A stretch of 64,000 nucleotides of DNA from Halopiger aswanensis (GTDB lineage Archaea; Halobacteriota; Halobacteria; Halobacteriales; Natrialbaceae): NCBI RefSeq assembly GCF_003610195.1, contig NZ_RAPO01000002.1, positions 806,001 through 870,000 on the forward strand, given 5' to 3'. The notes below the pieces were generated by a model that searched no databases, had not been told where the DNA came from, and saw only the letters and a list, made by a program, of their open reading frames with translations. A program made the translations under genes and the position numbers. Of this stretch, positions 3,184-22,749 are shown piece after piece. Numbering within the stretch: position 1 is the stretch's first letter; the number at the start of each line of letters is the position of its first letter.

Positions 3184-3292
3184 TCCCTTCTCGAGACCTC
3201 CGTTCCGCGATGGTCAGCGCCGACGGCGAGAGACGGAGAGAGTCGGGGTCGCACGGACCCCGATTCGCCTGCCGTCGCTTCCCAGTGTGCAG

Positions 3293-3814: not shown

Positions 3815-5863
3815 ATGCCCGAGAACACCGACACCGATGCCGGAACTGACGGCGACAGCGGTCTCGAGGCCGTCGACGAGATCGTCCACGAGCCCGATCC
3901 CGCGTTCGTCGAGTCGACCAACGTCTACGCGTTCATGCGGGAGTACGGGATCGACGACTACGACGAACTGATCGAGCGAACGACGACTGACCTCGAGGGG
4001 GTCGAGGAATCGGGGCTCGAGTGGTTCTGGGACGAGGTGGTCGACTATCTCGGAATCGAGTTCGACGAGGACTACGACAGGGTACGGGACGACAGCGACG
4101 GCCCGCAGTTCTCCGACTGGTACGTCGGCGGCGAGCTCAACGTCGCCCACAACGCCGTCGACCGACACGCCGCCGTCGACGAGGAGCGGCGCAACAAAGT
4201 CGCGACCATCTGGGAGGGCGAGGACGGCGAGGTCCGCGAGGTAACCTACCACGAACTCCACCGGCAGGCGAATCAGGTCGCGAACGCCCTCGAGGAGCGC
4301 GGGATCGACACGGGCGACACCGTCGGACTCTACATGCCGATGGTACCGGAGGTCGTCTCGATTCTCTACGGCTGTCTCAAGGTCGGCGCGATCGCGGTGC
4401 CGATCTTCTCCGGCTTCGGCGTGGACGCGGTCGCGACCCGCCTCGAGGACGCCGAGTGCTCGGTGCTGTTCACGGGCGACGGGTTCTACCGACGCGGGGA
4501 TCCCGTCTTCCTCAAGTCGACGGCCGACAGGGCGATCGAACAGGCGGGCCGCGTCGAGCGCGCGATCGTCTTCGATCGATTGGGTTCCAGCGACCGGGCG
4601 AACGAACACGAAATTCCCTGGACCGACGACCGCGACGAGTGGTGGGGCGCGGCCGTCGACGCGCAAGACGACGCCTACGAGACGAAATCGCTGCCCTCGA
4701 GCCACGAGTCGATGCTCCTCTACTCGTCGGGGACGACCGGGAAGCCGAAGGGGATCGTCCAGACTCACGCGGGCGTGCAGGTTCAGTGTGCGAAGGAGGT
4801 CTACTTCGGGATGGACCTCAAGCCCGCGGATCGGTTCTTCTGGGTCTCGGACATCGGCTGGATGATGGGGCCGTGGACGCTGATCGGAACCCACACCTTC
4901 GGCGGCACGGTCTTCATGTACGAGGGCGCGCCCGACTACCCCGATCCCGACCGGTTCTGGTCGATGATCGACCGGCACAACCTGACGCAGTTCGGCATCT
5001 CTCCCACGGCGATCCGGGCGCTCCGCAAGCACGGGGACCAGTGGCTCGAGGACCACGACCTCTCCTCCCTTCGCGTACTGGGTTCGACGGGCGAGCCGTG
5101 GGATCCCGAATCCTGGCGCTGGTTCTACGAGAACGTGGGGAACGGCGAGTGCCCGATCATCAACATCTCCGGCGGCACGGAGATCTGTGGCTGTTTTCTG
5201 ATGCCGATGCCGATCCAGTCGCTCAAACCCTGCACGCTCGGCGGGCCCGGGCTCGGAATGGACATCGATATCGTCGACGAGAACGGTGACTCCGTGGCCG
5301 ACGAGCACGAGCGCGGCTACCTCGTCGCCCGCAGTTCCTGCCCCTCGATGACGAAGTCCCTGTGGTCCGGAGACGACCGCTATCTCGAGGAGTACTGGTC
5401 GACCTGGCCGGACCTGTGGGACCACGGCGATTGGGCCCAGCAGGACGAAGACGGGTTCTGGTTCCTCCACGGCCGGGCCGACGACGCCCTGAACGTCGCC
5501 GGGCGCAAGGTAGGGCCCGCCGAAGTCGAAGGCGCCTTGATCGACCACGACGCGGTCAACCAGGCCGCAGCGATCGGCGCACCGGACGAGACGACCGGAA
5601 CGGCGGTCGTTACCTACGTCGTTCTCGAGGACGGCTACGGGGAAAGCGACGAGTTACGCGAGGAACTGCGCGAGCAGGTCGGTGCCGAGTTGGGCAAGCC
5701 GTTCCGCCCGCGCGAGGTGCTGTTCGTCGACGAATTCCCCAAAACCCAGTCGGGTAAAATCATCCGCCGAGCCATCGAAGCGACCTACGCGGGCGACGAT
5801 CTGGGCGACCTGAGCAGCATCGAAAATCCGGAAGCGCTCGACGAACTCGAGGCGGCCCGATGA
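3815..5863 (+). CDS. AMP-forming acyl-CoA synthetase (acetyl-CoA synthetase-like)
   Basis: The 682-residue enzyme is an ANL-superfamily ligase that activates a short carboxylic acid with ATP and CoA through an acyl-adenylate. It has the ACS-type N-terminal domain (VGGELNVAHNAVDRH), the P-loop YSSGTTGKPKG near residue 305, the adenylate-binding motif ISGGTEICG near 451, the hinge HGRADDALNVAGRKVGPAEVE near 551, and the catalytic Lys in KTQSGKIIRR near 646. It differs from the canonical acetyl-CoA synthetase at 51113-53104, which has WWQTETGG, so the substrate may be propionate or another short acid. It stands alone and converges with the LUD gene 76 bases away. Proximity to the lactate genes suggests organic-acid use, but this is not proof of substrate. 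Confidence 0.88.
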   Translation: MPENTDTDAGTDGDSGLEAVDEIVHEPDPAFVESTNVYAFMREYGIDDYDELIERTTTDLEGVEESGLEWFWDEVVDYLGIEFDEDYDRVRDDSDGPQFSDWYVGGELNVAHNAVDRHAAVDEERRNKVATIWEGEDGEVREVTYHELHRQANQVANALEERGIDTGDTVGLYMPMVPEVVSILYGCLKVGAIAVPIFSGFGVDAVATRLEDAECSVLFTGDGFYRRGDPVFLKSTADRAIEQAGRVERAIVFDRLGSSDRANEHEIPWTDDRDEWWGAAVDAQDDAYETKSLPSSHESMLLYSSGTTGKPKGIVQTHAGVQVQCAKEVYFGMDLKPADRFFWVSDIGWMMGPWTLIGTHTFGGTVFMYEGAPDYPDPDRFWSMIDRHNLTQFGISPTAIRALRKHGDQWLEDHDLSSLRVLGSTGEPWDPESWRWFYENVGNGECPIINISGGTEICGCFLMPMPIQSLKPCTLGGPGLGMDIDIVDENGDSVADEHERGYLVARSSCPSMTKSLWSGDDRYLEEYWSTWPDLWDHGDWAQQDEDGFWFLHGRADDALNVAGRKVGPAEVEGALIDHDAVNQAAAIGAPDETTGTAVVTYVVLEDGYGESDELREELREQVGAELGKPFRPREVLFVDEFPKTQSGKIIRRAIEATYAGDDLGDLSSIENPEALDELEAAR

Positions 5864-5939
5864 CGGAGCGAGTTGGGTCGAGGCGGCCGCTCGTTCGCTT
5901 CTCCGGCGAGCCGGTGTCGGCAGTGCGACGTCGCTCCGC

Positions 5940-8171
5940 TCACTCGAGCCGGGAGCGCGACTGCGGATCGAGCACTTCGACCGGGTGCACCGCGTCTCGG
6001 GCGAGCAGGTCCCCTAACTGTTCTTCGCAGGACGTCCCGCTGGCGACGACGAGCCGCTCACGGGCCTCGGGCTCGGTGAACTGCTCTGCGAGGCGGTCGC
6101 CGACGTCCATACTCAGTTCGTAGTACTCGCGCTTGTAACCGAAACTGCCGGCCATGCCGCAACACTCGACGTCGCTTTCGATCACGTCGTACTCGAGTTC
6201 CTCCAGGACGGCGCGAGTGTACCGATCGAGGCCGAGCGTCCGCTGCTGGCAGTGGGAGTGGTAGGCGATCTCCGGTCCGCCGTCGCCGGTCCGGAGCCCC
6301 GTCCCGTCGGCCCCGTTCTCGAGCAGCCCGTAGACGTACTCGAGCACGTCGTAGCTTCTCTCCCGCAGCCGCTCGTATGACTGCTCGGGGAGTAGCTTCT
6401 CGTACTCGCTGCGGAACATCGCGAGGTCGCTGGGCTCGATCGCGACGACGTCCCGACCGGCGTCGACGTGTTCGGCCAGGGCGGCGTAGACGCGACTCGC
6501 CTTCTCGTCGGCCGTCTCGATCATCCCCTGCGAGAGCGGTGCGCGGCCGCTGCCTGGAACCGACGGGATCCGGACGTGAACGCCGAGGGACTCGAGGACG
6601 CGGACGGCTGCCTTTCCGCGCTCGACGTCGACGTAGTTCGTGTAGACGTCGGGGTAGAGGACGACCTCGCGGTCGGCGTCCCCAGCGGGGACGCGCGGCC
6701 CGCGGGCTTCGAACCAGTCGACGAGCGTCCGTCGCTCGAACTCGGGCAGTTCGCGCCGGCCGTCGATGCCGACGAGACGTTCCATGAGCGACCGAACGGG
6801 GCCGACGCTCGCCGTCCAGTTCGAGAGCGGCGCGGTCGCAGACCCGAGCTTCGCGAGCGTCTCGTAGTTGCCGAACAGCCGCTTTTGCAGGTCGAGGCCG
6901 GCCGGTTCCTCGTCGGGCGTGAGCCCCTCGACGAGGAACTCGAACCGCCCGTCGTCGCCCTCGCGGTTGATCCGGTCGCGGACGACGGTGTTGATCCACG
7001 GGATGTCGATCTTCACCGGACACGCCTCGACGCAACGCGAACAGCCCGTACAGAGGTCGTTGAACTCCGCGGCGCTGTCCTGACCGTGGACGCCGGCTTC
7101 CCAGCCGGTTGCGATGCCGCCGGTGTAAGTCTCGCCGCCGAAGGCGTGACCGCCGACCGACTGGAAGTTCGCGCACGTGTTGGCACAGGCCGAACACCGG
7201 ATACAGTAGAGGGTTTCGCGGAGGTGTTCGTCCTCGCGCAGCGCCGTCCGGCCGTTGTCGATCAACACGAGGTGAAACTCGCGGTCGTCGTCGCGGTCGG
7301 CGAACGCGACGTCGGGGTCGTCGAAGTCGACGACGGGCGAGTCGACCGGCGGCGTTAGCAAGGAGATGTAGGAGGTAATATCCTGGCCGGTTCCCGATCG
7401 GCCGATCAGTTCGATGAACGGCGCGAGGTCCTCCACGGAGGGCACGATCTTCTCGACGCCCGCGACCGCGACGTGCGTGTCGGGAACGACGGCCGACTTC
7501 CGAGCGTTGCCCTCGCTCGTGACCAGCATGATCGAGCCCGAATCGGCCGTGATAAAGTTCGCACCGGTCATGCCGACGTCAGCGTCGGCGATCAGTTCGC
7601 CCAGCCGCTCGCGCGCGAACATCGTCAACTCCTCGGCGGTCTCGAGCGGTTCCTCGGGGTCGAACTGCGTGTTGAAGAGTCGGGCTATCTCCTCGCGGGA
7701 CTTGTGGATCGCCGGCGCGACGATGTGGCTGGGCGCGTCGTCGGCGACCTGCAGCACCCACTCGCCGAGGTCGGTCTCGACGACATCGACGCCGTCGCGC
7801 TCGAGCGCCTCGTTGACTTCGAGTTCCTCGCTGGTCATCGACTTCGACTTCACCACTCGATCGGCCGATTTCTCGCTGGCAACCTCCCGAATGTAGCGAT
7901 TGGCGTCGGCAGCGTCGTCGGCGAGGTAGACCGTCCCGCCGTTTTCCTCGACTGCCGCCCGGACTTCGTCGATCAGTTCGGGGAGGCGCTCGATCGCGTC
8001 CTCCTTGATCGCGCGGGCCTCCGTTTTCAGCGCCTCGTAGTCCTCGAGTTCGGCGACCGACTCGTACCGGCCCCGATTGAAGCCGAGCGTGTTCGCCTCG
8101 ACGGCGTCGCCCTCGGTCTCGAGGAGGTGGCGAATTCGTTCGGCTTTCGCCTCGCGGTCGGCACTACTCAT
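5940..8171 (-). CDS. lutB: LUD domain / Fe-S / CCG fusion protein, L-lactate utilisation (LutB-LutA type)
   Basis: The 743-residue protein combines what is usually spread over two bacterial subunits. Residues 1-310 are a LutB-type LUD domain (TGANFITADSGSIMLV near 201). Two [4Fe-4S] motifs follow, CIRCSACANTC (323-333) and CTGCSRCVEACP (374-385). The C-terminal half is a GlpC/LutA-like cysteine-rich domain with HCQQR and CCGMAGSFGY near 671. In the family it oxidises L-lactate and passes electrons to the quinone pool. The ATG at 8171 overlaps the lutC end by 8 bases, so the pair is translationally coupled. An in-frame extension to 8291 would run through lutC and is rejected. The C-terminal region closely resembles that of the FAD dehydrogenase at 14335. 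Confidence 0.9.
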   Translation of the reverse strand: MSSADREAKAERIRHLLETEGDAVEANTLGFNRGRYESVAELEDYEALKTEARAIKEDAIERLPELIDEVRAAVEENGGTVYLADDAADANRYIREVASEKSADRVVKSKSMTSEELEVNEALERDGVDVVETDLGEWVLQVADDAPSHIVAPAIHKSREEIARLFNTQFDPEEPLETAEELTMFARERLGELIADADVGMTGANFITADSGSIMLVTSEGNARKSAVVPDTHVAVAGVEKIVPSVEDLAPFIELIGRSGTGQDITSYISLLTPPVDSPVVDFDDPDVAFADRDDDREFHLVLIDNGRTALREDEHLRETLYCIRCSACANTCANFQSVGGHAFGGETYTGGIATGWEAGVHGQDSAAEFNDLCTGCSRCVEACPVKIDIPWINTVVRDRINREGDDGRFEFLVEGLTPDEEPAGLDLQKRLFGNYETLAKLGSATAPLSNWTASVGPVRSLMERLVGIDGRRELPEFERRTLVDWFEARGPRVPAGDADREVVLYPDVYTNYVDVERGKAAVRVLESLGVHVRIPSVPGSGRAPLSQGMIETADEKASRVYAALAEHVDAGRDVVAIEPSDLAMFRSEYEKLLPEQSYERLRERSYDVLEYVYGLLENGADGTGLRTGDGGPEIAYHSHCQQRTLGLDRYTRAVLEELEYDVIESDVECCGMAGSFGYKREYYELSMDVGDRLAEQFTEPEARERLVVASGTSCEEQLGDLLARDAVHPVEVLDPQSRSRLE

Positions 8172-9410: not shown

Positions 9411-11147
9411 ATGGCTAGCGGGCTCGAGATCGCGGCCGCAGCGTTGCCGCTCGTTCTGGCTGGCGTCCTCCTCGTTGGGCTGCTCTGGCCCGCCACGCGG
9501 TCGATGCCGATCGCCTACGTCACTGCAGTGGCTGTCGGGCTCGGCATCTGGGGGATGCCGGTCGATTACGTGGCCGCAGCGTCGATCGTCGGCGCCATGA
9601 CGGCGATACAGATCCTCTGGATCGTCTTCGGCGCGTTGCTCCTGCTATACACGCTGATGCAGGCCGGCGCGTTCGACCGCATCAACCAGGGGTTCGCAAC
9701 GATCAGCGACGATCGACGAGTACAGATCATTCTGCTCGGACTCTTCCTCGCCGCGTTCATCGAGGGGGCAGCTGGCTTCGGCACTCCGGCGGCGGTCGTC
9801 GCCCCGCTCTTACTGGCCCTCGGCTTCCCGGCGCTTGCCGCGGTGATCGCCGGACTGATCGGTCACATACTCGCGGTCACGTACGGGGCCGTCGGGACGC
9901 CGATTATCATCGGGATCGAAAACCCGCTGGCCTCGGCTGAGGCGACGAATACGGCGATCACCAACGCCGGGTTTACCGTTCAGGAGTACTCCCTCGAGGT
10001 CGCTGTGTGGGCGGCGACTTACCACACGCTCATCGGCTTCGTGATGCCGCTTTTCGCGGTCGGCATGGTCGTTTACTTCTTCGGCGACACCGAAGAACGG
10101 AGCCTCGAGCCAATGTGGGAAGTCGCACCGCTGTGTCTGTTTTCGGGAATCGCGTTCGTCGTCCCGTACTGGCTGTCGGCACAGATCAGTGCGGAGTTCC
10201 CAAGCTTGGTGGGTGCGATGGTCGGCGGTGCGATCGTCGTCAGCACGCTCAAAGCAGGCTACTTCACGCCTGACGAAGAGTGGGACTTCCCGCCCCGCGA
10301 GGAGTGGCCCGACCACTGGGTCGGAACGATCGAACCCGGCCAGTCCAGTTCGCCAGACGTGACCAGCGGCACCGGCGACCCTGCGGCTGCGGACGGCGGC
10401 GTCAGCTCGGCCAACATGTCGCTGCTCCGTGCCTGGACGCCGTACATTCTGCTGGTCGTCTTGCTCGTCGTCACGCGAGTCGTCGATCCGCTTCCGTCCA
10501 TCCTGCAGCAGTTCGGAACGCAGTGGACCAACATCCTCGGCACGGGACTCAGCGGCGGGATCGACTGGGTGTACGTCCCCGGCTTCTGGTTGGTGGTCTG
10601 TGCGCTGATCGCGATCCCCCTGTACGGGATGTCCGGACGGCAGGTCAAATCCGCCTTCGCGGAGACGGGGCAGAAACTCGTTTCACCGCTGATCGCGCTC
10701 GTGTTCGTCATCGCGATGGTCCAGGTGATGCTCCAGTCGGGCGCTCACGCGGAGAGCGCCGAGAGTATGATCTTCGTCCTCGCCCAGACGACTGCGGACA
10801 TCGTCGGTCCGGCCTATCCGTTCATCTCCGCGCTCATCGGCGCGCTCGGCGCGGCGATGGCCGGCTCGAACACGGTGTCGAACATCACCTTCGGCGGCTT
10901 CCAGTTCGAGGCCGCCCAACAGCTCGGGCTGCCGACGCAGATCATCGTCGGCGCCCAGGCCGTCGGCGGCGCCATCGGCAACCTCGTGGCGATCCACAAT
11001 GTCGTCGCCGCGCTCGCGACCGTCGGCCTCGTCGGTCAGGAAGGCCGCGTGATGCGGTTGAACCTGATCCCGCTGATCTACTACGCGACCGGGGTCGGGA
11101 TCGTCGCGACGCTGTTCAGCTACGTCCTCTTCCCCGGCCTCTTCTAG
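9411..11147 (+). CDS. lctP: L-lactate permease, LctP family (copy 1)
   Basis: The 578-residue polytopic membrane protein has a dozen or more hydrophobic segments, the LctP-type stretch IEGAAGFGTPAAVVAPLL near 123, and the C-terminal block GSNTVSNITFGGFQFEAA followed by AQAVGGAIGNLVAIHNVVAA. The family imports lactate (and often glycolate) by proton or sodium symport. The ATG at 9411 is chosen over a GTG at 9402 because GAGGTGA lies five bases before it and overlaps the GTG. It is divergent from lutC, which supports co-regulation with L-lactate oxidation. A close paralogue lies at 12470. The hydrophilic loop near residues 300-345 differs most between the two. Confidence 0.95.
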   Translation: MASGLEIAAAALPLVLAGVLLVGLLWPATRSMPIAYVTAVAVGLGIWGMPVDYVAAASIVGAMTAIQILWIVFGALLLLYTLMQAGAFDRINQGFATISDDRRVQIILLGLFLAAFIEGAAGFGTPAAVVAPLLLALGFPALAAVIAGLIGHILAVTYGAVGTPIIIGIENPLASAEATNTAITNAGFTVQEYSLEVAVWAATYHTLIGFVMPLFAVGMVVYFFGDTEERSLEPMWEVAPLCLFSGIAFVVPYWLSAQISAEFPSLVGAMVGGAIVVSTLKAGYFTPDEEWDFPPREEWPDHWVGTIEPGQSSSPDVTSGTGDPAAADGGVSSANMSLLRAWTPYILLVVLLVVTRVVDPLPSILQQFGTQWTNILGTGLSGGIDWVYVPGFWLVVCALIAIPLYGMSGRQVKSAFAETGQKLVSPLIALVFVIAMVQVMLQSGAHAESAESMIFVLAQTTADIVGPAYPFISALIGALGAAMAGSNTVSNITFGGFQFEAAQQLGLPTQIIVGAQAVGGAIGNLVAIHNVVAALATVGLVGQEGRVMRLNLIPLIYYATGVGIVATLFSYVLFPGLF

Positions 11148-11213: not shown

Positions 11214-11540
11214 ATGAATACGGTGCTACTCGAGCGACGGACCGACGACGAACGGCTGGCCAGCGTCGCCATCGTCGACGGGCCCCGGCTACTCGAGGTC
11301 CCGGGCCCGGACGCGACGGTCGACGGACCCGAATTCGCGCTCGGCGAGCACGCCGCTCCCGAGGCGCGCGACGCGATCATCGCGGGCGGCACCGGCGACG
11401 GAGGCCGCGTCGGTTCTCGGTTCGTTCTCGCTCGAGGCGTATCGACTGGTCGTGACGAACGCCGGACGCGGACGACGCCGAACCCGTGAGCGACGAACTG
11501 TCGCCGCGCGGACCGGTTTCACCCGAGCGTCGGCGTGAAC
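11214..11540 (+). pseudogene. Possible decayed small gene (frameshifted hypothetical)
   Basis: An ATG at 11214 opens a 91-codon frame with protein-like sequence (MNTVLLERRTDDERLASVAI and GPEFALGEHAAPEARDAI) up to about 11395. The frame then turns into an Arg-rich low-quality stretch. The frame beginning at 11401 instead continues plausibly as EAASVLGSFSLEAYRLVVTN and runs to a stop at 11540. One inserted base, or two deleted, near 11395-11400 would explain this. No TATA element or known domain is seen. It could be a decayed gene, a sequencing error, or chance, since GC-rich DNA keeps all frames open. Confidence 0.3.
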
Positions 11541-12142
11541 CGATCGGGCCCGAGGAAGTTCCAGATGTGGCCGCGCTCTTCCGGCGGGTCGACGCCCGGC
11601 AACTCCTTCAGCGCGGGCTGGATCGCGTTCCACCAGCCCTCGTCCGTTTCGAACTCCGCGGGGTGATCCGGGTAGACGTTCTCGAGGAAGTCGGACTTTC
11701 TGGCGCTCGGGTTTTCGATGAGGTACTCGTAGGACGCGAGGAGGGCCTCCCGGCGGGCCTCGAGCGTCGCACCCGTGCCGGGGAGGTCGACCGCAGCCAT
11801 CGCTTCTCGGACCGCGGGCGGCGGGCTCTCCGTCTCGGATCGGGTCGCAGTCTGCTGATGTTCCAGATTCGGATCCGGGTCCGGGTCCGGATCGCCCTCG
11901 ATCGGGACCCACCAGACCCGTCCGCGAGCGCCGACCTTGCGCGTCTCGAGCGTTCCGTCCTCGACGAGGGCGTTGAGTTTGTTGTGCGCGGTCCGCCGCG
12001 AGCAGTCCAGGTGGTCCATGACGTCGTCCGCCGTCAGCGGGCGGCCGAGATCCTCCCGGTCGTCGAACGCCTCGAGGGCGGCCGTCGCCGGGATTCGGTC
12101 CGCGTACTGACCCTGGCCGTTTCGCTCACGATCGTCGCTCAT
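11519..12142 (-). CDS. Winged-helix DNA-binding regulator of the lactate region
   Basis: The 207-residue protein has an N-terminal winged helix-turn-helix at residues 20-80 (PLTADDVMDHLDCSRRTAHNKLNALVEDGTLETR is its core). A DPDPDPDPN linker and a C-terminal domain of unknown function, rich in Trp and Glu (EGWWNAIQPALKELPG), follow. It has no ligand-binding domain I recognise. The start at 12142 is favoured over 12181 because the palindrome GCATATGC, its likely TATA box, is centred 27 bases upstream. It lies between two lactate permease genes and is divergent from the second, so it is the best local candidate for control of lactate genes. Confidence 0.75.
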   Translation of the reverse strand: MSDDRERNGQGQYADRIPATAALEAFDDREDLGRPLTADDVMDHLDCSRRTAHNKLNALVEDGTLETRKVGARGRVWWVPIEGDPDPDPDPNLEHQQTATRSETESPPPAVREAMAAVDLPGTGATLEARREALLASYEYLIENPSARKSDFLENVYPDHPAEFETDEGWWNAIQPALKELPGVDPPEERGHIWNFLGPDRFTPTLG

Positions 12143-12469
12143 GCGAAAGACCTGCACACACGTCTGCATATGCCTTTGCATCTCGCCGAATACGGGTTAG
12201 CGACCGATCGGACGCGCCGATCGAGCGCGTTCGACGGTGCGAGTCGAGTGTCGCCGTCGGTACTCGCCGGACCCGACCGGCGACCATCGAGGGAGTCGCT
12301 CGCCGCGAGTGACCGCAGAGGCGTTCGCCGATCGTCCCGCGTTAGCCGAGCGAGAAGTCGTGCGAGACGTTCACTGGGTCCGGTAGCTATAAACGGTCGA
12401 TCTTCCCATGATATATTATGACATGATTAACTCGCGACGGTACTCGTGCACGGGGAAGAGGTGGAGTCG
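12143..12469. promoter_or_regulatory. Divergent promoter region between regulator and second lctP
   Basis: No gene is seen in these 327 bases. Near the regulator, TGCA recurs at 12153, 12165 and 12177, and the perfect palindrome GCATATGC (12166-12173) forms the TATA box of the leaderless regulator transcript. Near the permease, ATATATTATG (12411-12420) is the likely TATA box, followed by the ribosome-binding motif GAGGTGG at 12459-12465. The palindrome over the regulator's own promoter suggests autoregulation. Confidence 0.5.
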
Positions 12470-14251
12470 ATGGCTGAGTTGATCGCGGTCGCCCTCGCGG
12501 CGGTCCCGCTGATCGTCGTCAGCGTGCTCCTCGTCGGCTTCCTCTGGCCCGCCACGCGCGCGATGCCGATCGCTTGGCTCTCGGCGCTCGTCGTCGCCGC
12601 GTTCGGCTGGGGGATGCCCGTTAGATGGTTGGCCGCGGCGACCATCGAAGGGGTGTTGATCGCCGTCCAGATCCTCTTTATTGTCTTCGGGGCGCTCGTC
12701 CTGTTGTACACGATGCTTCGGGCGGGGGCGTTCGACGTACTCAACGCCGGATTCGCGCGAATCAGCGACGATCGTCGCGTCCAGATCGTCCTGATCGCGT
12801 TCTTCCTCTCGACGTTCATCGAGGGCGCGGCCGGCTTCGGGGCGCCGGCCGCGGTCGTTGCACCGCTGCTGCTCGGCCTGGGCTTCCCCGCGCTGGCCGC
12901 CGTCGTCGCCGCACTGATCGGCCACATCATCGCGGTTACCTACGGCGCAGTCGGGACGCCGATCATCGTGGGTATCAGGGAACCGATGGCGAACGTCTCC
13001 GGGATCGCGTCGGCGATCGAATCCGGCGGGCTGACGCCGAACGAGTTCGCGGTCAACGTCGCCGCGTGGGCCGCGACCTACCACCTGCTGGTCGGCTTCG
13101 TCATGCCGCTTTTCGTCGTCGGGATGGTCGTCTACTTCTTCGGCGACTCCGACGATCGATCGATCAGACCGGCGCTCGCGGTGTGGCCCCTCTGTCTGTT
13201 CGCCGGCCTGGCTTTCGTGGTTCCCTACTGGCTGTCCGCGTGGTTCATCAGCGCCGAATTCCCGGCGCTCGTGGGCTCGATGGTCGGTGCGGCGATCACG
13301 ATCGCCGCGCTCCGCGCGGGATACTTCCTCCCCGACGAGGAGTGGACCTTTCCCGACCAGAGCGAGTGGCCCGACCACTGGACCGGATCGATCCAGCCGA
13401 CGGACGCCAGGAGCGTCCTCGCCGGAACACACGATATCTCGCTCGCACGCGCCTGGTCTCCGTACCTCCTGCTGGTCGTGTTATTGATGTTCACCCGCCT
13501 CTTCGACCCGTTCCCGGCCCTGCTTCGCGGTGAGCAGGTGTCGCTTTTCGGGCGGCAAGTGTCGCTCGTGCTGGGAACGACCGCGACGGAGTTCGGCGAG
13601 TTCACCGTCGGCCTGTTCCTCTTCGAGTGGACGAACGTTCTCGGGACCGGTCTCGGAAGCGGCATCAACTTCGTTTCCGTCCCCGGCACCTGGCTGCTGG
13701 TGAGCGCGATCGTGGCGGTCAGCCTCTTCGATATGAATCGTCGGCAGATCGCGGAGGCGTGGGGCGGCGCGACCTCGAAGCTGATCTCGCCGCTGATCGC
13801 GCTGGTGTTCGTGCTCGCGATGGCGCAGGTGATGCTTCAATCGGGCTCGCACGCCGAAGGGACCGAGAGCATGATCGTCGTCCTCGGTACCGCGACGGCG
13901 AACGTGGTCGGGCCGGCTTACCCGATGGTCGCCGCGCTCATCGGCGCGCTCGGCGCCGCGCTCGTCGGATCGAACACCGTCTCGAACATCACGTTCGGCC
14001 CGTTCCAGTTCGTGGCGGCCCAGCGACTCGGCTTCTCGAAGGAACTGATCGTCGGCGCCCAGGCCGTCGGCGGCGCGATCGGCAATCTCGTGGCGATCCA
14101 CAACGTCGTCGCCGCACTCGCGACCGTCGACCTCATCGGCGAGGAGGGGCGCGTGATCCGACTCAATCTGGTCCCGCTCGTCTACTACACCGTGTTCGTC
14201 GGCTTCTGGGCGCTCCTGTTTACCTACGTGCTCTTCCCGGAGGTGTTCTAA
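12470..14251 (+). CDS. lctP: L-lactate permease, LctP family (copy 2)
   Basis: This 593-residue permease is paralogous to the one at 9411 along its length. It shares IEGAAGFGAPAAVVAPLL, the FVVPYWLSAWF segment, GSNTVSNITFGPFQFVAA and AQAVGGAIGNLVAIHNVVAA. It has a longer central loop near residues 330-380 (RGEQVSLFGRQVSLVLG). The ATG at 12470 follows GAGGTGG by four bases; a GTG at 12446 is less likely. It is followed 83 bases later by the FAD/Fe-S dehydrogenase on the same strand, so this copy probably serves D-lactate or glycolate uptake while copy 1 serves L-lactate. That division is inferred from gene order only. Confidence 0.95.
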   Translation: MAELIAVALAAVPLIVVSVLLVGFLWPATRAMPIAWLSALVVAAFGWGMPVRWLAAATIEGVLIAVQILFIVFGALVLLYTMLRAGAFDVLNAGFARISDDRRVQIVLIAFFLSTFIEGAAGFGAPAAVVAPLLLGLGFPALAAVVAALIGHIIAVTYGAVGTPIIVGIREPMANVSGIASAIESGGLTPNEFAVNVAAWAATYHLLVGFVMPLFVVGMVVYFFGDSDDRSIRPALAVWPLCLFAGLAFVVPYWLSAWFISAEFPALVGSMVGAAITIAALRAGYFLPDEEWTFPDQSEWPDHWTGSIQPTDARSVLAGTHDISLARAWSPYLLLVVLLMFTRLFDPFPALLRGEQVSLFGRQVSLVLGTTATEFGEFTVGLFLFEWTNVLGTGLGSGINFVSVPGTWLLVSAIVAVSLFDMNRRQIAEAWGGATSKLISPLIALVFVLAMAQVMLQSGSHAEGTESMIVVLGTATANVVGPAYPMVAALIGALGAALVGSNTVSNITFGPFQFVAAQRLGFSKELIVGAQAVGGAIGNLVAIHNVVAALATVDLIGEEGRVIRLNLVPLVYYTVFVGFWALLFTYVLFPEVF

Positions 14252-14334: not shown

Positions 14335-17300
14335 ATGGCAACTGATCCAACTGATTCCACCGATCCGATCGTGTCGGCCGATCGACCGACGACAGACCAG
14401 GACCCTGCACTCGATCCGCAGGCGAACTACGACTACCGCAGCGACGATATCGATCGGCCGGAGCTGGTCGCCGACCTCGAGCGGCGGATCGCCGGCGAGG
14501 TCCGCGCTGACTCGTACTCACGTCAGCTGTACGCGACCGACGCGAGCATCTACGAGGTGACGCCGATCGGGGTCGTCTTCCCGCGATCGACCGAGGACGT
14601 CGCCGCCGTCGTCGAGTACTGCGCCGAGCGGGGGATTCCGGTGCTACCCCGCGGCGGCGGAACGAGCCTCGCCGGCCAGACCGTCAACGAGGCCGTCGTC
14701 CTCGATTTCACGAGAGACATGGACGGCGTCGTCGACGTCGATCCAGACGCGCGGCGGGCGACCGCCCAGACGGGGATCTACCTCGAGTCGCTTAACGAGG
14801 CGCTGGCACCCCACGGACTGAAGTTCGCGCCCGATCCCGCCTGGGGGGACAAGAGCGCGCTCGGCGGCGCGATCGGCAACAACTCGACCGGCGCTCACTC
14901 CCTGCAGTACGGGAAGACCGACGCCTACGTCGAGGAGGTCGAGGTCGTCCTCGCGGACGGCACCGTCACGACCTTCGGCGAGGTCGCCGTCGACGACCTG
15001 CCCGAGCTCGCCGACGGCGACGACCTCGAGGCGGCGATCTACGCCGAGGTGGCTCGCATTTTAGAGGAGCGGGGCGACCTGATCGAGGAGACCTATCCCG
15101 ACCTCAAGCGCAACGTCTCCGGCTACAACCTCGACTGGCTCGTCGAGGACGCTCGCGGTGCCGAGCGCGGGATCGGCGAACCCGACGCCGAGGGCGGCAC
15201 CGTCAACCTCGCGAAACTGCTCTGTGGCAGCGAGGGGACCCTGGCGATCGTCACCGAGGCGACGGTGTCGCTCGAGCCGATCCCCGAGGAAAAGAGCATG
15301 GCCCTGCTGGCCTACGAGTCGGTACTCGACGCGATGGACGACGTCGAGCCGATCGTCGACCACGATCCCGCCGCGGTCGAGGTGATCGACGACGTGATGA
15401 TCGACCTCGCCCGGAACACGCCCGAGTTCGCTCCCGTCACCGAGATGCTTCCGGACGGGACGGCCGCCGTGTTAGTCGTCGAGTTCTACGCCGACGACCT
15501 CGACGACGGCAAGCGGAAGGTCGCGAACCTGCTCGCCGATCGCTGCCCGACCGTCGATCCCGACGGCGAGGCCGACGACGAGACCGATCGAACGATCTCC
15601 GACGCCGACGAGCTCGCGTTCGACGCGATCGAGGCCTACGACGCGGACAGTCGGGCGAAGATCTGGAAGCTCCGCAAGTCCGGCCTGCCGATCCTCCTCT
15701 CGCGGACGACCGACGAGAAACACGTCGCGTTCATCGAGGACACCGGGATCCCGCCGGAAAACCTCCGGGCGTTCGTCGCGGACTTTCAGCGGGTCCTCGA
15801 GGATCACGACACCTACGCCAGCTTCTACGCCCACGCCGGCCCCGGCGTCCTCCACATTCGACCGCTCGTGAACACGAAGACGGAAGCGGGACTCGAAGCG
15901 ATGGAATCGATCGCCGACGCCGTGACGGACCTCGTCGTCGAGTACGACGGCTCGGTCTCGGGCGAACACGGCGACGGTCGCGCGCGCACCCAGTGGAACC
16001 GCAAGCTGTACGGCGAGGAGATGTGGGAGACGTTCCAGGAGCTGAAAACGGCGTTCGACCCCGACTGGCTCCTGAACCCGGGACAGGTCGTCTTCCGCGA
16101 CGACGATCCCACCGACATGACGGAGAACCACCGGTTCGGCCCCGACTACGCGTTCGACGCCGGATTCGATCCGCACCTCGAGTGGGACAACGACAACGGC
16201 TTCCAGGGGATGGCCGAGCTCTGTCACGGCTGTGGCGGCTGTCGGGGCGAGCAGTCCACGACGGGGGGCGTGATGTGTCCGACGTTCCGCGCCGAAGACG
16301 AGGAGATCCTCTCGACGCGAGGGCGAGCGAACGCCCTCAGACAGGCGATGAGCGGGAATCTCGATCCCGACGAACAGTTCAGCGACGAGTTCGTCGAGGA
16401 GGTACTGGATCTCTGTATCGGCTGCAAGGGCTGTAAGCACGACTGCCCGAGCGGGGTCGACATGGCCAAGATGAAGGCGGAACTCACCTACGAACACCAC
16501 AAGCGAGCGGGCACCTCGCTACGGGACCGCATGTTCGCCAACTTCGAGACGCTCGCGAAGCTGGGGTCGGCGACCGCGCCGCTCTCGAACTGGGCGACCG
16601 CGATCCCCGGCAGCGGCCTCGTCGCCGAGAAACTGCTCGGCATCTCGCGGGAGCGAGACCTGCCGACGTTCCGGCGAAACACGTTCGCAAAGCGCGTCGC
16701 GGACCACCGGCCAGCCGTCCCGGCGGCGGACGCCGAACGGCGAGTCGTCCTCGTCCCGGACGTCTACACCAACCACGAGTACCCCGAGGCCGGCGAGGCA
16801 GCCCTCGAGGTGCTCGAGGCCGCGGGGGTCCACGTCGAGGTCGCGGAGCCGCGCGACGTGGGCCGCCCCGCCTACTCGAAAGGGCTGCTCGACGAGGCCG
16901 CCGAAAACGCACAGCAGACCGTCCACGACCTGCTGCCCTACGTCGAGGACGGGTACGACGTGGTCCTGCTCGAGCCGTCCGACGCCGTCATGATCCAGTC
17001 GGATTACCGCGACCTGTTCGACCACGAGCAGGTCGAGGCGGTCGCGGAGAACACCTACGGCGTCTGCGAGTACCTCGATACGTTCCGTCTCGACGAGACG
17101 CTCGCGTTCGACGCACCCGACACCCACCTCGCCTATCACGGCCACTGCCACCAGAAGGCCCACGCCAAGGACCACCACGCCGTCGGGGTCCTCCGACGGG
17201 CGGGGTACGCGGTCGATCCGCTCGACTCGACGTGCTGCGGGATGGCCGGTTCGTTCGGCTACGAAGCCGAGCACTACTCGATGAGCAAGGCGATCGGGGA

Positions 17301-17448
17301 GGTGCTGTACGAGCAGGTCGACGACAGCGAGGGCGACCGCGTCGTCGCCCCCGGCGCGTCCTGTCGGACGCAGCTCGGAGACCGGTCCGACGCGGCCGAG
17401 GAGCCGCCGACGCCGATCGAAGTCGTCGCCGAGGCGCTCGCGGAGTAA
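14335..17448 (+). CDS. dld: FAD-binding and Fe-S dehydrogenase, D-lactate dehydrogenase / glycolate oxidase type (GlcD-GlpC fusion)
   Basis: This 1037-residue fusion oxidises a 2-hydroxy acid, probably D-lactate, and passes electrons through Fe-S clusters to the membrane. The FAD-binding type-4 domain has RGGGTSLAGQTV near 106 and NNSTGAHSLQYG near 182. The FAD-oxidase C-terminal domain ends with SGEHGDGRART near 540. Two Fe-S motifs follow, CHGCGGC from 630 and CIGCKGCKHDCP from 694, then a CCG domain with YHGHCHQKAH and CCGMAGSFGY near 967. It lies downstream of lctP copy 2, likely as one operon. The segment FETLAKLGSATAPLSNW near 728 recurs almost identically in the LUD fusion at 5940, so both share one C-terminal module. 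Confidence 0.92.
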   Translation: MATDPTDSTDPIVSADRPTTDQDPALDPQANYDYRSDDIDRPELVADLERRIAGEVRADSYSRQLYATDASIYEVTPIGVVFPRSTEDVAAVVEYCAERGIPVLPRGGGTSLAGQTVNEAVVLDFTRDMDGVVDVDPDARRATAQTGIYLESLNEALAPHGLKFAPDPAWGDKSALGGAIGNNSTGAHSLQYGKTDAYVEEVEVVLADGTVTTFGEVAVDDLPELADGDDLEAAIYAEVARILEERGDLIEETYPDLKRNVSGYNLDWLVEDARGAERGIGEPDAEGGTVNLAKLLCGSEGTLAIVTEATVSLEPIPEEKSMALLAYESVLDAMDDVEPIVDHDPAAVEVIDDVMIDLARNTPEFAPVTEMLPDGTAAVLVVEFYADDLDDGKRKVANLLADRCPTVDPDGEADDETDRTISDADELAFDAIEAYDADSRAKIWKLRKSGLPILLSRTTDEKHVAFIEDTGIPPENLRAFVADFQRVLEDHDTYASFYAHAGPGVLHIRPLVNTKTEAGLEAMESIADAVTDLVVEYDGSVSGEHGDGRARTQWNRKLYGEEMWETFQELKTAFDPDWLLNPGQVVFRDDDPTDMTENHRFGPDYAFDAGFDPHLEWDNDNGFQGMAELCHGCGGCRGEQSTTGGVMCPTFRAEDEEILSTRGRANALRQAMSGNLDPDEQFSDEFVEEVLDLCIGCKGCKHDCPSGVDMAKMKAELTYEHHKRAGTSLRDRMFANFETLAKLGSATAPLSNWATAIPGSGLVAEKLLGISRERDLPTFRRNTFAKRVADHRPAVPAADAERRVVLVPDVYTNHEYPEAGEAALEVLEAAGVHVEVAEPRDVGRPAYSKGLLDEAAENAQQTVHDLLPYVEDGYDVVLLEPSDAVMIQSDYRDLFDHEQVEAVAENTYGVCEYLDTFRLDETLAFDAPDTHLAYHGHCHQKAHAKDHHAVGVLRRAGYAVDPLDSTCCGMAGSFGYEAEHYSMSKAIGEVLYEQVDDSEGDRVVAPGASCRTQLGDRSDAAEEPPTPIEVVAEALAE

Positions 17449-17771: not shown

Positions 17772-18557
17772 CTAGCGGCGACGAGACAGCCAGACGCCGC
17801 CGCCGATCGCCACCAGCGAGCCGACGACGCCGGGGCCGGGCAGGGAGTCGCCCGTTCCCTCGGCAGCCGTCCCGCCGTCGTCCGCCGGCTCGATCGCGGC
17901 CTCGTACCCCTCGAAGGAGGTGTTCGCGTCCCAGACCGCACGCTCGGCGGTCCGGTCGGCCGGTGTCGGATCGGACGCGGCGAGTTCGTACCCGTCCGGT
18001 AGCTCGAGGACGACCGGCCGATCGGCCGTGAATCCGCTGGCGAACGGCTCGGTCACGCGGAGGGTCCCGTCCGCCGTCGCCGCGAGGCCGCGCCAGTCGG
18101 CAGCCACGGAGACGACACCGCGGTCGCCCCCATCGACCGTCTCGAACGACGTGCGGACGTTTTCGACGGTCATCTCGCGCCCGGTTTCGGAAGCTGCCTC
18201 GGCGGCGATCGTCCGAAACCGCTGCTCGGTCCGCGCCTCGAGGCGGTCGCGCTTCGTTTCGTTCTCGCGCAGCGAGTCGAAGGCCGCTCGCTCGGCTTCG
18301 TCCGTCAGGTCGAACGCGACGCGGACGGTCACCGTCGCGTCGCCGTCGTCCTCGAGGGCGACGACGAATGCCTCGTCGGAGGCCGCCCGGTCGTCGCCCT
18401 GCTCGGCGCTTTGACCGGTACCGACGCCGGGGCTTGCGGCGGCGCCCCCGGTCGCGGCGACGGCGACGAGCGCGAGGGCGAGGAGCCACGCGGCGTACGT
18501 TCGCAGACGTCCCCGACCGCGATCAGTTCGTGGATTCGTCCGTTGTATCGGTCTCAT
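17772..18557 (-). CDS. Secreted protein with PGF-CTERM-like C-terminal sorting signal (DUF7345-like)
   Basis: The 261-residue protein has an N-terminal hydrophobic signal after a basic segment (RTYAAWLLALALVAVAA near 21-37) and an exported domain at about 55-215. It ends in a tripartite tail: PGPGV, a hydrophobic stretch and SRRR. This resembles the PGF-CTERM signal that archaeosortase A cleaves to lipid-anchor surface proteins, and artA is at 35272. The exported domain is paralogous to that of the protein at 20140: both have a ~20-residue Arg/Glu helix followed by a T(or S)GR.MT motif. The ATG at 18557 lies inside the end of the upstream gene, a 35-base overlap suggesting coupled translation. 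An in-frame upstream extension is only the shadow of the acidic tail there. Confidence 0.72.
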   Translation of the reverse strand: MRPIQRTNPRTDRGRGRLRTYAAWLLALALVAVAATGGAAASPGVGTGQSAEQGDDRAASDEAFVVALEDDGDATVTVRVAFDLTDEAERAAFDSLRENETKRDRLEARTEQRFRTIAAEAASETGREMTVENVRTSFETVDGGDRGVVSVAADWRGLAATADGTLRVTEPFASGFTADRPVVLELPDGYELAASDPTPADRTAERAVWDANTSFEGYEAAIEPADDGGTAAEGTGDSLPGPGVVGSLVAIGGGVWLSRRR

Positions 18558-19956
18558 TGTCGGTCTCGTCGTCTTCGTCGTCCTCGTCCGCGTCGTCTTC
18601 GTCGTCCGAATCGTCCCGTTCGTCACCATCCTCGCGGTCCGCGCCGTCCTCGGCACGGCGGTCGTCGTCCGCGAGATCGAGTTCGAGTTCGGCCTCGAGG
18701 TCGCCGTGGGTCACGTCGATCTCGAGTTCGTCCGCGCCGTCGGGGACCGCGAACGAGACGGTGCCGTCGTCGCCGGTGGTGCCGACGGACTCGTCGTTCG
18801 CGACGACGTCGGCTCCCGACACCGCACTGCCGTTGTGCGTCACCGTGACAGTCACGGTGCCGTTCTCGACGGTAGCGTCGGTCTCGAGCGCCCCGTCGTC
18901 GTCGCGGTCGGTCTCTCGTTCGTCGTCGTTCTCGCGCTCGCTTTCGTTTTCGCGTTCGTCTTCGTCCGCATCATCGTCATCCCGTTCGTCGATCTCCGGC
19001 GCTTCGGCGTCGTCAGCGTCGCCGGCGTCGGGCGCTTCGATCTCCTCCTCGAGTTCGAAGACGGTGCCCGTTTCGCCGTCGACGCTAATCTCGGCCTCGC
19101 CGGTCGCATTGCCGGTCAGGCTGAACTCGAACTCGTAGACGCCGTCGTCGGCGTCGCTCTCGCTTTCGTCGAGCGTCCAGTTGCCGTCGACGGCCGAGAG
19201 CGCGTCAGTTGCAGCCTCGCGTGCCTCGGACTGGGAGATGTCGAGGGAGCCGTCGCCGTCGCGCGGTCGCTCGAACTCGCGGCTCCGCTCGCCGTCCTCG
19301 GTTTCGGCTTCGATCGAGACGCCACCGCCGGTCTCGATCTCGATTTCGGCTTCGCCCTGCGCCTCGCCGGTGAACTGCCGGCGGAGCGCGTCGGTGCCCG
19401 TACTGGTCAGCTGGGCGACCGCGTCGCGCTGCTCGCGCAGTTCCGACGCGGACACGTTGGCCGCGTCGAGCGCGTCGGGCGAGACGTCGTCGGCTCGCTC
19501 GAGGAGCCGGTCGTAACTCGAGACGACGCCCTGTGCGCGGGCGTTCACCGACGCGAGCCGCTGGGCGTAGGTCGATTCGTCGATGTCGCCGGCCTCGTAG
19601 GCCGCGGTCGCCTCGTCGTACTCAGCCTGCAGCGTCGCGGATCGGTTCTCGAGGACCGCAGCACGGTCGGCGATCGCGGCCGCGCGGGCCTCGTCGTCGC
19701 TGTCGGTGCGTTCCAGCCGTTCCTCGAACGCCGCGTTTTCGAACTCCGTGCGCACCTCGTTGCTCGTCGCGGTGACGAGCGTCGAGAGCTGTGCGCCGGT
19801 CGTCACGGTGACGCTGTCGTTCGTCGTCGATTCGTTTTGGGTCTGGGTCGCCACACTGGCGCCGGTACCGGCACCGGCGCCGGCGACGACCGCCGGGCCG
19901 ATGGCGCTCGTACAGAGCAGTACAGCCAGGGAGGCGATCAGTAGTCGTCGGATCAT
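18523..19956 (-). CDS. Secreted acidic protein with PepSY-like and Ig-like domains (DUF7096-like)
   Basis: The 477-residue protein starts with a signal peptide or membrane anchor (MIRRLLIASLAVLLCTSAIG). Next comes a helical region at about 50-190, then a PepSY-like domain near 235-300 (SEAREAATDALSAVDGNWTL), an acidic linker, and a beta-rich carboxypeptidase-regulatory-like domain near 355-425 (GSAVSGADVVANDESVG). The extreme Asp/Glu tail has no sorting signal. I recall a haloarchaeal family DUF7096 with this layout. The start at 19956 is set by the signal peptide and a TATA-like GTTTATGG about 31 bases upstream. It overlaps the following PGF-CTERM-like gene by 35 bases. Function is unknown; extracellular sensing or adhesion is speculation. 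Confidence 0.72.
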   Translation of the reverse strand: MIRRLLIASLAVLLCTSAIGPAVVAGAGAGTGASVATQTQNESTTNDSVTVTTGAQLSTLVTATSNEVRTEFENAAFEERLERTDSDDEARAAAIADRAAVLENRSATLQAEYDEATAAYEAGDIDESTYAQRLASVNARAQGVVSSYDRLLERADDVSPDALDAANVSASELREQRDAVAQLTSTGTDALRRQFTGEAQGEAEIEIETGGGVSIEAETEDGERSREFERPRDGDGSLDISQSEAREAATDALSAVDGNWTLDESESDADDGVYEFEFSLTGNATGEAEISVDGETGTVFELEEEIEAPDAGDADDAEAPEIDERDDDDADEDERENESERENDDERETDRDDDGALETDATVENGTVTVTVTHNGSAVSGADVVANDESVGTTGDDGTVSFAVPDGADELEIDVTHGDLEAELELDLADDDRRAEDGADREDGDERDDSDDEDDADEDDEDDETDNETDTTDESTN

Positions 19957-20139
19957 CGTCGCTTGCGCATCGACGGGACGTCCCCATAAACGGGGTCGAT
20001 CATCGGGCCGATTTGCGGCGATTTGCACCGTTTGCGCGGATGCACGGGAGCCCGTTTGCACCGATTTGCATCGATTTTCTGTCTATTTTCTGCCCAGACA
20101 GTACGCTTATACGATAGCTCTCACAACAGCGGGGCACCC
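19957..20139. promoter_or_regulatory. Divergent promoter with 10-bp-phased direct repeats
   Basis: Between the two divergent envelope genes lie repeats of the type CGATTTGCAC starting at 20009, 20019, 20029, 20053, 20062 and 20072, with a weaker match near 20038. Spacings are about 10 bases, one helical turn. Flanking them are the minus TATA box (CCATAAAC at 19984-19991) and the plus TATA box (TTATAC at 20107-20112). The array lies exactly between the two core promoters and is likely a multi-subunit regulator site. Confidence 0.6.
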
Positions 20140-21315
20140 GTGAGAACCGTATTCGACTGCATCGTAACTGCACTATTTGTTGCTGTTCTTATACTATCGG
20201 CAGCGGTCGTTCCCGTCGGCGCGTCGACGGTGCCCGCCCAATCGGGTAGCGCGAGCGACGACACGTCCCTCATCGCAACGGCGGACCTCCCCGAAGCCGA
20301 CGCGACGGTCACGCGGATCGAACTCGAGGCGAACGGGACCGCCCGCTGGTCGATCTCGGTTCGGACGCGCCTCACGAACGAGTCCGACGTCGAGGACTAT
20401 CGGGCCTTTCAGGAGCAGTTTCGCGCCGACCGCGAGACCTACCGCGACCGGTTCGAGCAGCGGATGACCGGCGTCGTCTCGGGCGCGGCCGACGCGACCG
20501 GTCGGAACATGACCGCGTCGGCGTTTCGCGCGGAGACGTCGATCCAGGAACTGCCGCGGCGGTGGGGCGTCGTCACCTACTCGGTCACCTGGACGAACTT
20601 CGCCACGGTTGCGGACGACGCGGTCGTCGTCGGCGACGTGTTCGAGGGCGGCCTCTACCTCGGCGACGGCGACTACCTCGAGGTCGTGCCGCCCGCGGAG
20701 TACGAACCGACGGAGACGTCGCCGCCGCCGACCGAAACCGAAGGGCGGACGGTCGTCTGGACCGGGCCGGAGGAGTTCGCCGACCAGCAGCCGACGGTAC
20801 GGTTCGAACCCGCGGAATCGGACGCGACGGCCGCCGACGAGACGACCGCCTCGAGCGGGTCGTTCTCCCCGCCGCTCGTCGGCGTCGCGTCGATCGCCGC
20901 CCTCGCGCTCGTCCTCGGCGGTATCGCCGTCGCCGTCGTCTCGGACCGCAAACCCGTCGCGCGGATCCGCGCGAGACTCTCAGGTGCGTTCTCCTCCGCG
21001 AGCGGGCCGGCCGACTCGGCGGACGGAGAAGCGACCGGGGCGGCAACCGGCGTCGCCGACGACGGTGCAAGTTCGGCCGACGGAGCGGACTCCGCCTCCC
21101 CGCCGGATCCCGAACTCCTCACCGACGAGGACCGCGTCCGGCGCCTGCTCGAGCGAAACGGCGGTCGAATACGCCAGGCCGAGATCGCCGACGAACTCGA
21201 GTGGTCGGCCTCGAAGACCTCGCGGGTCGTCTCGGCGATGGCCGACGAGGGAACTGTCGAGAAGCTCCGGATCGGCCGCGAGAACGTGATCGATCTGCTC
21301 GAGGACTCCGAGTAG
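20140..21315 (+). CDS. Membrane-anchored protein with exported DUF7345-like domain and cytoplasmic winged helix
   Basis: The 391-residue protein looks like a one-component transmembrane regulator. Residues 6-28 are a signal or membrane segment (IVTALFVAVLILSAAVV). An exported domain at about 45-230 is paralogous to the secreted protein at 17772. Transmembrane residues 247-270 follow, then an Ala/Asp-rich linker. Residues 326-388 form a winged HTH (RIRQAEIADELEWSASKTSR). I recall the HTH as DUF7343-like. The GTG at 20140 is chosen because TTATAC is centred 30 bases upstream. Divergent from the secreted gene pair, it could sense an envelope signal and bind the phased repeats beside it; that is inference. 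Confidence 0.78.
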   Translation: MRTVFDCIVTALFVAVLILSAAVVPVGASTVPAQSGSASDDTSLIATADLPEADATVTRIELEANGTARWSISVRTRLTNESDVEDYRAFQEQFRADRETYRDRFEQRMTGVVSGAADATGRNMTASAFRAETSIQELPRRWGVVTYSVTWTNFATVADDAVVVGDVFEGGLYLGDGDYLEVVPPAEYEPTETSPPPTETEGRTVVWTGPEEFADQQPTVRFEPAESDATAADETTASSGSFSPPLVGVASIAALALVLGGIAVAVVSDRKPVARIRARLSGAFSSASGPADSADGEATGAATGVADDGASSADGADSASPPDPELLTDEDRVRRLLERNGGRIRQAEIADELEWSASKTSRVVSAMADEGTVEKLRIGRENVIDLLEDSE

Positions 21316-21423: not shown

Positions 21424-22749
21424 TCAGTCGTCACCCGCGGCCGTGTCGCCGCCGACCTCGAGGCCCTGCGTCGGATCGGCCCACGAGCCGCTGGTAAAGT
21501 CGATCGCGTCGTTCCAGTGAGCGACGACCGTCGTCACCGCGAGGTCGCCGGTCACGTTCGTCATCGTCCGCAGGCGGTCGAGGATCGGGTCGACGCCGGC
21601 GACGAAGCCGACCACCTCGAGCGGCAGCCCCAGTTGCGTCAACACCAAGGTCAGCATGATCAGCCCGGTCCCGGGGACGCCGCCGGCGCCGATACTCGCG
21701 AGGACGGCGATGAGGACGACCGTCACCTGCTCGACGATCGTCAACTGGACGCCCACGAGGTTCGCCGCGAAGATGGCCACGACGCCCTGGTACATCGCCG
21801 TGCCGTCCATGTTGATCGTCGCACCCAGCGGGAGCGAGAACCCGTAGACGCTCTCGTCGATCCGCAAGTTCTCGTCGGCGTTGGACATCGTCACCGGCAG
21901 GGTCCCGCTCGAGGAACGGATCGAGAGCGCGGTGACGATCGCGTCCTTCGAGCCCGCGAGGAAGGCGACGGGGGACTGCCGGGTCAGCGCCATAATCAGC
22001 CCGCCGAGGTAGACGAGCCCGATGTGGAGCAAGATCGCGACGGTCAACGCGGCGATCAGCACCGCGAAGGAGGCGATGGCGTCGGCGCCGGCCTCGCCGA
22101 AGACGGCCGCCATCAGCGCGAAGACGCCGATGACGCCGTACTCCATGATGCCCCAGACGAGCTTGAACAGCGCCTCCGTCCCCGCCTCGACGATGTTGAA
22201 TATCGACTCGATTCCCGCCTGCACCGTCTCGTCGTCGCTCGACTCCTCGAGGTACAACAGCGCGAGTCCGAAGACGATCACGAAGAAGATCGTCGCGAGG
22301 ACGTCGCCCTCCGCCATCGCGCCGATCGGGTTCTCGGGGACGATGCCGACCAGCACCTCGACGAAGTCCGGCGTCTCCTCGGGTTCGAACTGGACGTCTT
22401 CGGCCAACGTCAGGCCCGTTCCCGGGTTCACCAGGTTGGCCACCGCCAGTCCGATGAAGACCGCGATCGCGGACATCGCGGCGTACAGCGCGATCACCTG
22501 GCCGCCGATCCGGCCCAGTTGCGCCGGCGAGATGCGTCTGATCCCCATCAACAGGGTAAAGACCACGATGGGGATGACGATCATGGACAGCAGCCGGACG
22601 AAGATATCGCCCAGCGGCTGGAGCACCGTCGCGGGCTGTCCGACCACCAGCCCGACGATCGATCCGAGGACGAACGCTGCACCGATCCGGTAGACGATCG
22701 GTACCGACCGGTACCGTTGCCAGTACGATTGGCTGTTTTGTGTTGACAT
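21424..22749 (-). CDS. Dicarboxylate/amino acid:cation symporter (DAACS family, GltP/DctA-like)
   Basis: The 441-residue polytopic protein couples uptake of an acidic amino acid or C4-dicarboxylate to sodium or protons. Family hallmarks are the re-entrant loop Ser-rich motif RSSSGTLPVT near 282, the unwound-helix motif NMDGTA near 318, the second re-entrant loop SIGAGGVPGTGL near 355, and DPILDRLRTMTNVTGD near 398 that binds the substrate amino group and carboxylates. A strong ribosome-binding site, TGGAGGTG, sits 7 bases before the ATG, so this mRNA is leadered. It is divergent from a frameshifted lipoprotein gene. Substrate cannot be decided from sequence alone. Confidence 0.92.
   Translation of the reverse strand: MSTQNSQSYWQRYRSVPIVYRIGAAFVLGSIVGLVVGQPATVLQPLGDIFVRLLSMIVIPIVVFTLLMGIRRISPAQLGRIGGQVIALYAAMSAIAVFIGLAVANLVNPGTGLTLAEDVQFEPEETPDFVEVLVGIVPENPIGAMAEGDVLATIFFVIVFGLALLYLEESSDDETVQAGIESIFNIVEAGTEALFKLVWGIMEYGVIGVFALMAAVFGEAGADAIASFAVLIAALTVAILLHIGLVYLGGLIMALTRQSPVAFLAGSKDAIVTALSIRSSSGTLPVTMSNADENLRIDESVYGFSLPLGATINMDGTAMYQGVVAIFAANLVGVQLTIVEQVTVVLIAVLASIGAGGVPGTGLIMLTLVLTQLGLPLEVVGFVAGVDPILDRLRTMTNVTGDLAVTTVVAHWNDAIDFTSGSWADPTQGLEVGGDTAAGDD

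Follow-up and report, generated by a model that had tools for sequence, protein, structure and literature searches.

What might a membrane-bound DNA-binding protein control when a secreted copy of its own outer domain is encoded beside it? The question is raised by three neighbouring genes, here called A, B and C, in a 64,000-nucleotide stretch of the Halopiger aswanensis genome (contig NZ_RAPO01000002.1, positions 806,001 to 870,000; hereafter the window). C is predicted to cross the membrane into a winged helix, and A and B are predicted to be exported. From their domains, from an array of sites in the gap between B and C, and from the conservation of the set, we lean towards C being a one-component regulator, tethered to the membrane, that controls its own locus and has B and A as extracellular partners.

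Architecture of protein C

Protein C comprises 391 residues, with a signal sequence and a GTG start at 20140 that is kept in relatives. It matches DUF7345 (E 4.7e-30, 104.9 bits) and DUF7343 (E 1.9e-29, 101.7 bits), for which the cut-offs are 27.5 and 27.6 bits. In the AlphaFold model a single transmembrane (TM) helix, residues 249–268, lies between the outer domain and the winged helix; the predicted local distance difference test score is mostly 90 or more over both domains, and about 97 in the winged helix. Among known structures, the modelled winged helix resembles those of the MarR/ArsR type and of Z-alpha, with Z about 10 and a root-mean-square deviation (rmsd) of 1.3–2.4 Å in most of the best matches. 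A preliminary description of this locus, made by eye, had C continuing through the membrane into a winged helix, and domain matches and model together bear this out, showing a predicted architecture of DUF7345 outside, one TM helix, and a C-terminal winged helix inside. N-glycosylation sequons can be read in the outer part of C, and the Haloferax volcanii proteins HVO_0306 and HVO_1944, named transmembrane glycoprotein/HTH (helix-turn-helix) domain proteins, have yielded glycopeptides (PMC8241124); both observations agree with an outside location of the N-terminal part.

The best Foldseek matches over the outer domain were FMO protein (E 3e-6) and mycobacterial LppM (E 2e-3, Foldseek probability 1.0). 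Because the superpositions were poor, no function was read from either match. A sequence search of the PDB with C returned spurious matches only.

A helically phased array between B and C

B shares its strand with A and overlaps the start of A by 35 nt, and both are divergent from C; we therefore take B and A to form one operon, divergent from C. The earlier statement that B is transcribed divergently from A was mistaken or unclearly put. The 183-bp gap between B and C holds TTTGCA-type sites at 20012, 20022, 20031, 20055 and 20065, together with two degenerate TTTTCT sites near 20075 and 20086. The TTTGCA-type sites lie 27, 37, 46, 70 and 80 bp from a putative TATA box of B. Across orthologous gaps, sites recur 27, 37 and 47 bp and 69, 79 and 89 bp from the B TATA box, while the remaining sequence drifts.

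Measured against shuffled first-order Markov sequences, an excess was seen at 11 of 12 loci of the family and at 13 of 19 loci of a further set, which includes some species of the first. Both strands of 905 kb were scanned for three or more consecutive sites at spacings of 9–11 bp; the 15 runs obtained all lie in a B–C gap. The exact pair TTTGCNNNNNTTTGC has five matches genome-wide in the H. aswanensis genome, two of them at the B–C gap. As far as tested, we rejected the array as the mark of a wide regulon: few exact pairs occur across the genome, fewer than of the reversed control.

Relatives of the module come in two arrangements: type I, with A and a long B divergent from C, and type II, with C, a short B′ and A′ following one another on a single strand. 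A periodicity of 10 bp was significant (P <= 0.02) in 14 of the 15 type I gaps tested; it appeared in none of 11 type II promoters and none of 13 promoters of a more distant, two-gene core form described below. The idea of a single operator common to all DUF7345 regulators was rejected on account of these type II and core promoters. Among type I C proteins, those with W-S-A/P-S in the recognition helix accompany TTTGCA arrays, and those with W-S-K-S (in Halorubrum, Halobellus and Natronorubrum thiooxidans) accompany arrays that are periodic but drifted (TTTCG, TTTCAC). Such co-variation of recognition helix and motif is the behaviour that would be expected of a binder and its site. With an array specific to the locus and helically phased, a regulatory role has become far more probable than it was at the outset.

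The exported proteins A and B

Protein A, 261 residues from an ATG at 18557, has a signal peptide and a DUF7345 domain (PF24036) at residues 66–190 that scores above the curated cut-off (E 9.5e-23, 81.2 bits; cut-off 27.5). Compared directly with C by BLASTP, it gives E 2e-13 at 28% identity, so the domain likeness is real, and the exported domain that A and C had been proposed to share is confirmed. The PGF-CTERM tail also ascribed to A holds for nearly all of its homologues, in which PGF is close to invariant; PF18204 matched four rows of one alignment. It does not hold for the window copy, which ends in PGPG, a hydrophobic stretch and RRR and matched no PGF-CTERM model.

Protein B, of 477 residues, has a signal peptide and an Asp/Glu-rich tail. 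Its matches to DUF7096, PepSY and Fn3_arc (E 7.7e-5, 1.1e-4 and 1.2e-4) each fall slightly under the curated cut-off; DUF7096 scores 23.1 bits by hmmscan (cut-off 27) and 30.7 bits with frame neighbours in the genome search. Over 21 aligned homologues, DUF7096 was found in all at E <= 0.01 (best 6.7e-15) and Fn3_arc in 19, and PepSY was matched by the window B alone (22.9 bits, cut-off 24). B is predicted to fold into a helical domain, an alpha/beta domain resembling cystatin and PepSY (cystatin-fold match, Z 7.8) and a macroglobulin/Ig-like domain that matches Escherichia coli alpha-2-macroglobulin (Z 11.5, rmsd 1.6 Å). B is, as first described, an acidic, secreted protein with a predicted Ig-like domain. 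The idea that its helical domain is a Spy/CpxP-type sensor met with no such structural match, which is a weak test for a helical bundle.

Conservation of the module

With B as bait, a scan of named genomes returned 22 loci from about ten genera, among them Natrinema, Halorubrum, Halorientalis, Halobellus, Haloglomus, Halomarina, Salinibaculum, Halosegnis, Halomicroarcula, Natronorubrum and other Halobacteriales. Gene calls in relatives came from a simple codon-usage script, and their start positions are approximate. By the preliminary description's own test, a neighbourhood not kept in other haloarchaea would have refuted its proposal; the neighbourhood is strongly conserved: a divergent C adjoins B at all 22 loci, and A lies downstream at 16. 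A Halobaculum roseum plasmid holds the whole set, with its genes under three unrelated annotations. Type II modules, codirectional, with a short B′ and without the 10-bp array, were seen at loci L090–L094 and L096–L104.

The more distant and older core form, a DUF7096 gene divergent from an adjacent DUF7345-DUF7343 gene, was present in 76 of the 79 genomes sampled across the haloarchaeal class (42 genera). DUF7345 was also found in 13 sampled genomes of the phylum from outside the window's order. The core pair of H. aswanensis itself (L010, G000:C3:54000-67000, 4725-7495) adjoins V-type ATPase genes; its DUF7096 protein has the plan DUF7096-DUF7094-Fn3_arc, the same as B, and the neighbourhood of this copy showed no gene for a secreted DUF7345 protein. 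The core-pair promoter keeps a GTTTTAT...GATGGAAAGnGTTTT element across families.

In a tree of the DUF7345 domain, all A proteins form one clade (Shimodaira–Hasegawa-like approximate likelihood ratio test 99), and the C proteins of type I, type II and the core form each fall on one side of a branch. The single A clade indicates one origin for A, which has remained with the module since.

Other regulator pairs were noted as well. In H. aswanensis (L014, G000:C1:363000-374000, 2863-6507) a gene for a 984-residue secreted protein with DUF7282 and a weakly DUF7096-like start adjoins one for a short DUF7343 protein without DUF7345, another pairing of regulator and secreted protein. A DUF7345-DUF7343 regulator divergent from a metallo-hydrolase-like gene occurs in the same arrangement in H. 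aswanensis (L012, 5711-7893) and on a Natrinema thermotolerans plasmid (L109, 5159-7122).

A model for the locus and its alternatives

Under the reading we lean towards, several membrane-tethered C molecules would bind the tandem TTTGCA sites, which are spaced by one helical turn. This spacing would place all sites on the same side of the DNA and would suit a membrane-held protein, since all sites face one way. Binding would most likely switch on the B–A operon, and perhaps C itself, because the array lies upstream of the B TATA box, between the divergent promoters. B, an exported and divergent copy of the DUF7096 protein found beside DUF7345 regulators, would most likely contact the outer domain of C as a co-sensor; the near-universal linkage of DUF7096 with DUF7345 makes it the likely partner of C outside the cell. 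A, as a cell-surface copy of the sensing domain, could have a ligand or partner in common with C and so feed back on its output. The step we hold least firmly is the last, that what the loop reads out may be the condition of the cell surface, much as the preliminary description had suggested in speaking of envelope state, or else a ligand outside the cell, possibly a hydrophobic one.

Several points weigh against this reading. Both TATA boxes are guesses from the consensus. At one locus (L131) C has an S-A-S recognition helix, yet B and C lie far apart and there is no array. The co-variation of helix and motif rests essentially on one clade and may count as a single evolutionary event, because the W-S-K-S proteins are related. 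A is missing from six of the 22 loci that keep B and C. Lastly, H. volcanii HVO_0306/HVO_0307, which we take to be a core pair, is placed there by gene order, not by sequence.

Among the alternatives, the best surviving is that B and A are plain envelope proteins, serving adhesion, S-layer maintenance, or cation or lipid binding, as targets of a dedicated regulator C, and stand outside the sensor. The adhesion-like Ig and poly-acidic parts of B, the surface-anchoring PGF tail on A in most relatives and the position of the array upstream of B would all fit. We nevertheless judge this rather unlikely, as it leaves unexplained why a target should carry the sensing domain of its regulator, and why DUF7096 should be linked to the DUF7345 regulator in nearly every haloarchaeon, A-less forms included.

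Somewhat more doubtful still is that A acts as a decoy, a released or surface-anchored DUF7345 domain that draws off the ligand (or B) and so leaves less for C; the paralogues would then compete, as the preliminary description had suggested, and the feedback would be negative. A and C have the domain in common, A is co-transcribed with B from the array-bearing promoter, and its single origin and retention through the type I/type II split would speak for such a role. Set against this, the two domains are only 28% identical, any sharing of a ligand is putative, and A is absent from the core pairs seen as well as from the six loci noted above, so that the system can evidently do without a competing paralogue.

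That another regulator binds the array while C acts elsewhere in the genome is improbable: a promoter region could host any factor, but this array is confined to the A/B/C locus, has no counterpart upstream of type II and core relatives, and has a motif that follows the recognition helix of C.

Returning to C as regulator of its own locus, we put forward one extension with little confidence: in a prokaryotic signalling loop, a tethered transcription factor might control a copy of its own receptor domain that is secreted and anchored at the surface, acting as decoy or co-receptor in the manner of the soluble decoy receptors of animals, and might assemble on a phased operator that keeps every bound protomer facing the membrane.

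Genomic context and feature coordinates

The three genes sit between an FAD/Fe-S oxidase gene (14335-17448) and a symporter-like gene, named by eye (21424-22749). Nearer the start of the window, two similar permease genes (9411-11147 and 12446-14251; lactate-permease-like by eye) flank 11214-12169; together with the FAD/Fe-S oxidase gene that follows, these likely form a lactate/glycolate utilisation cluster.

Table 1. Features of the A/B/C locus, in window coordinates
Feature	Position	Strand	Description
Gene A	17772..18557	-	Secreted; DUF7345 domain 17988-18362; degenerate PGF-CTERM-like tail about 17775-17840
Gene B	18523..19956	-	Secreted acidic protein; overlaps start of A
Gene B, domains		-	Helical DUF7096-like 19405-19935; PepSY/cystatin-like about 19054-19239
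Gene B, C-terminal part		-	Ig/macroglobulin-like about 18703-18915; Asp/Glu-rich tail about 18526-18669
Putative TATA box, B–A operon	19984..19992	-	Consensus only
Operator-like array	20010..20091	+	TTTGCA-type sites in phase with the DNA helix
Putative TATA box, gene C	20106..20114	+	Consensus only
Gene C	20140..21315	+	Predicted membrane-tethered regulator; outside DUF7345 20314-20703
Gene C, further parts		+	TM helix about 20884-20943; inside DUF7343 winged helix about 21115-21297

Comparison with known systems

Only a small number of membrane-bound transcription factors have been studied in archaea, and cell-surface sensing in haloarchaea is poorly known. The DUF7096/DUF7345 pair occurs in nearly every haloarchaeon sampled; no relevant paper naming DUF7345, DUF7343, DUF7096 or COG2512 was found, and none that assigns these families a function. 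What is new here is that the sensor has a secreted copy, that the partner is exported and that a phased array is specific to the locus. Since the module offers a sharply defined candidate operator along with the secreted sensor copy, direct tests are possible both of its DNA target and of its partners outside the cell, and it may be a general haloarchaeal route for reading the state of the S-layer or membrane.

By its predicted architecture, C belongs to the transmembrane transcription regulators, a class that a survey defines by architecture (PMC10269533): like them, it joins a DNA-binding domain and a membrane helix in one protein, with no kinase. Beyond this, the C locus has a secreted partner that is conserved, a second, secreted version of the sensing domain and an operator-like array that is phased. 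The core DUF7096 and DUF7345-DUF7343 pairs have the same domains as the window set, but no TTTGCA array was found in the pairs examined. HVO_1944 of H. volcanii, a transmembrane glycoprotein/HTH protein listed with ftsZ1 among CdrS binding targets (PMC8406309), may belong to the same regulator family as C. LppM of Mycobacterium tuberculosis, reported to bind phosphatidylmyoinositol mannoside (PMC6151718), is a fold match only, with 10% identity and a modest superposition, and is not a regulator; FMO protein outscores it by E-value against C and differs from it in function.

The ArnR and ArnR1 proteins of Sulfolobus are, like C, archaeal membrane-bound one-component regulators. ArnR has an N-terminal HTH, a HAMP-like or sensing domain and two C-terminal TM helices, and no secreted paralogue is described in the parts of the source available (PMC6396743). 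C is not of the ArnR type, having the opposite domain order and one TM helix.

Similar in manner of working are ToxR/ToxS and CadC, which have a single-pass tethered winged helix and, in ToxS, a partner encoded alongside (PMC7496328, PMC5430869). The ToxR operator is a direct repeat with a 10-bp period, TNAAA-N5-TNAAT (PMC7496328). ToxR-like receptors have an N-terminal cytoplasmic OmpR-type winged helix, a single TM helix and a C-terminal outside sensor (PMC5430869), whereas C is predicted to have an N-terminal sensor and a C-terminal IclR/MarR-like DUF7343 domain, and both its partner and its twin are exported. By analogy, C would work like ToxR/ToxS, yet it is not itself ToxR-like, because its domain order and type of winged helix differ.

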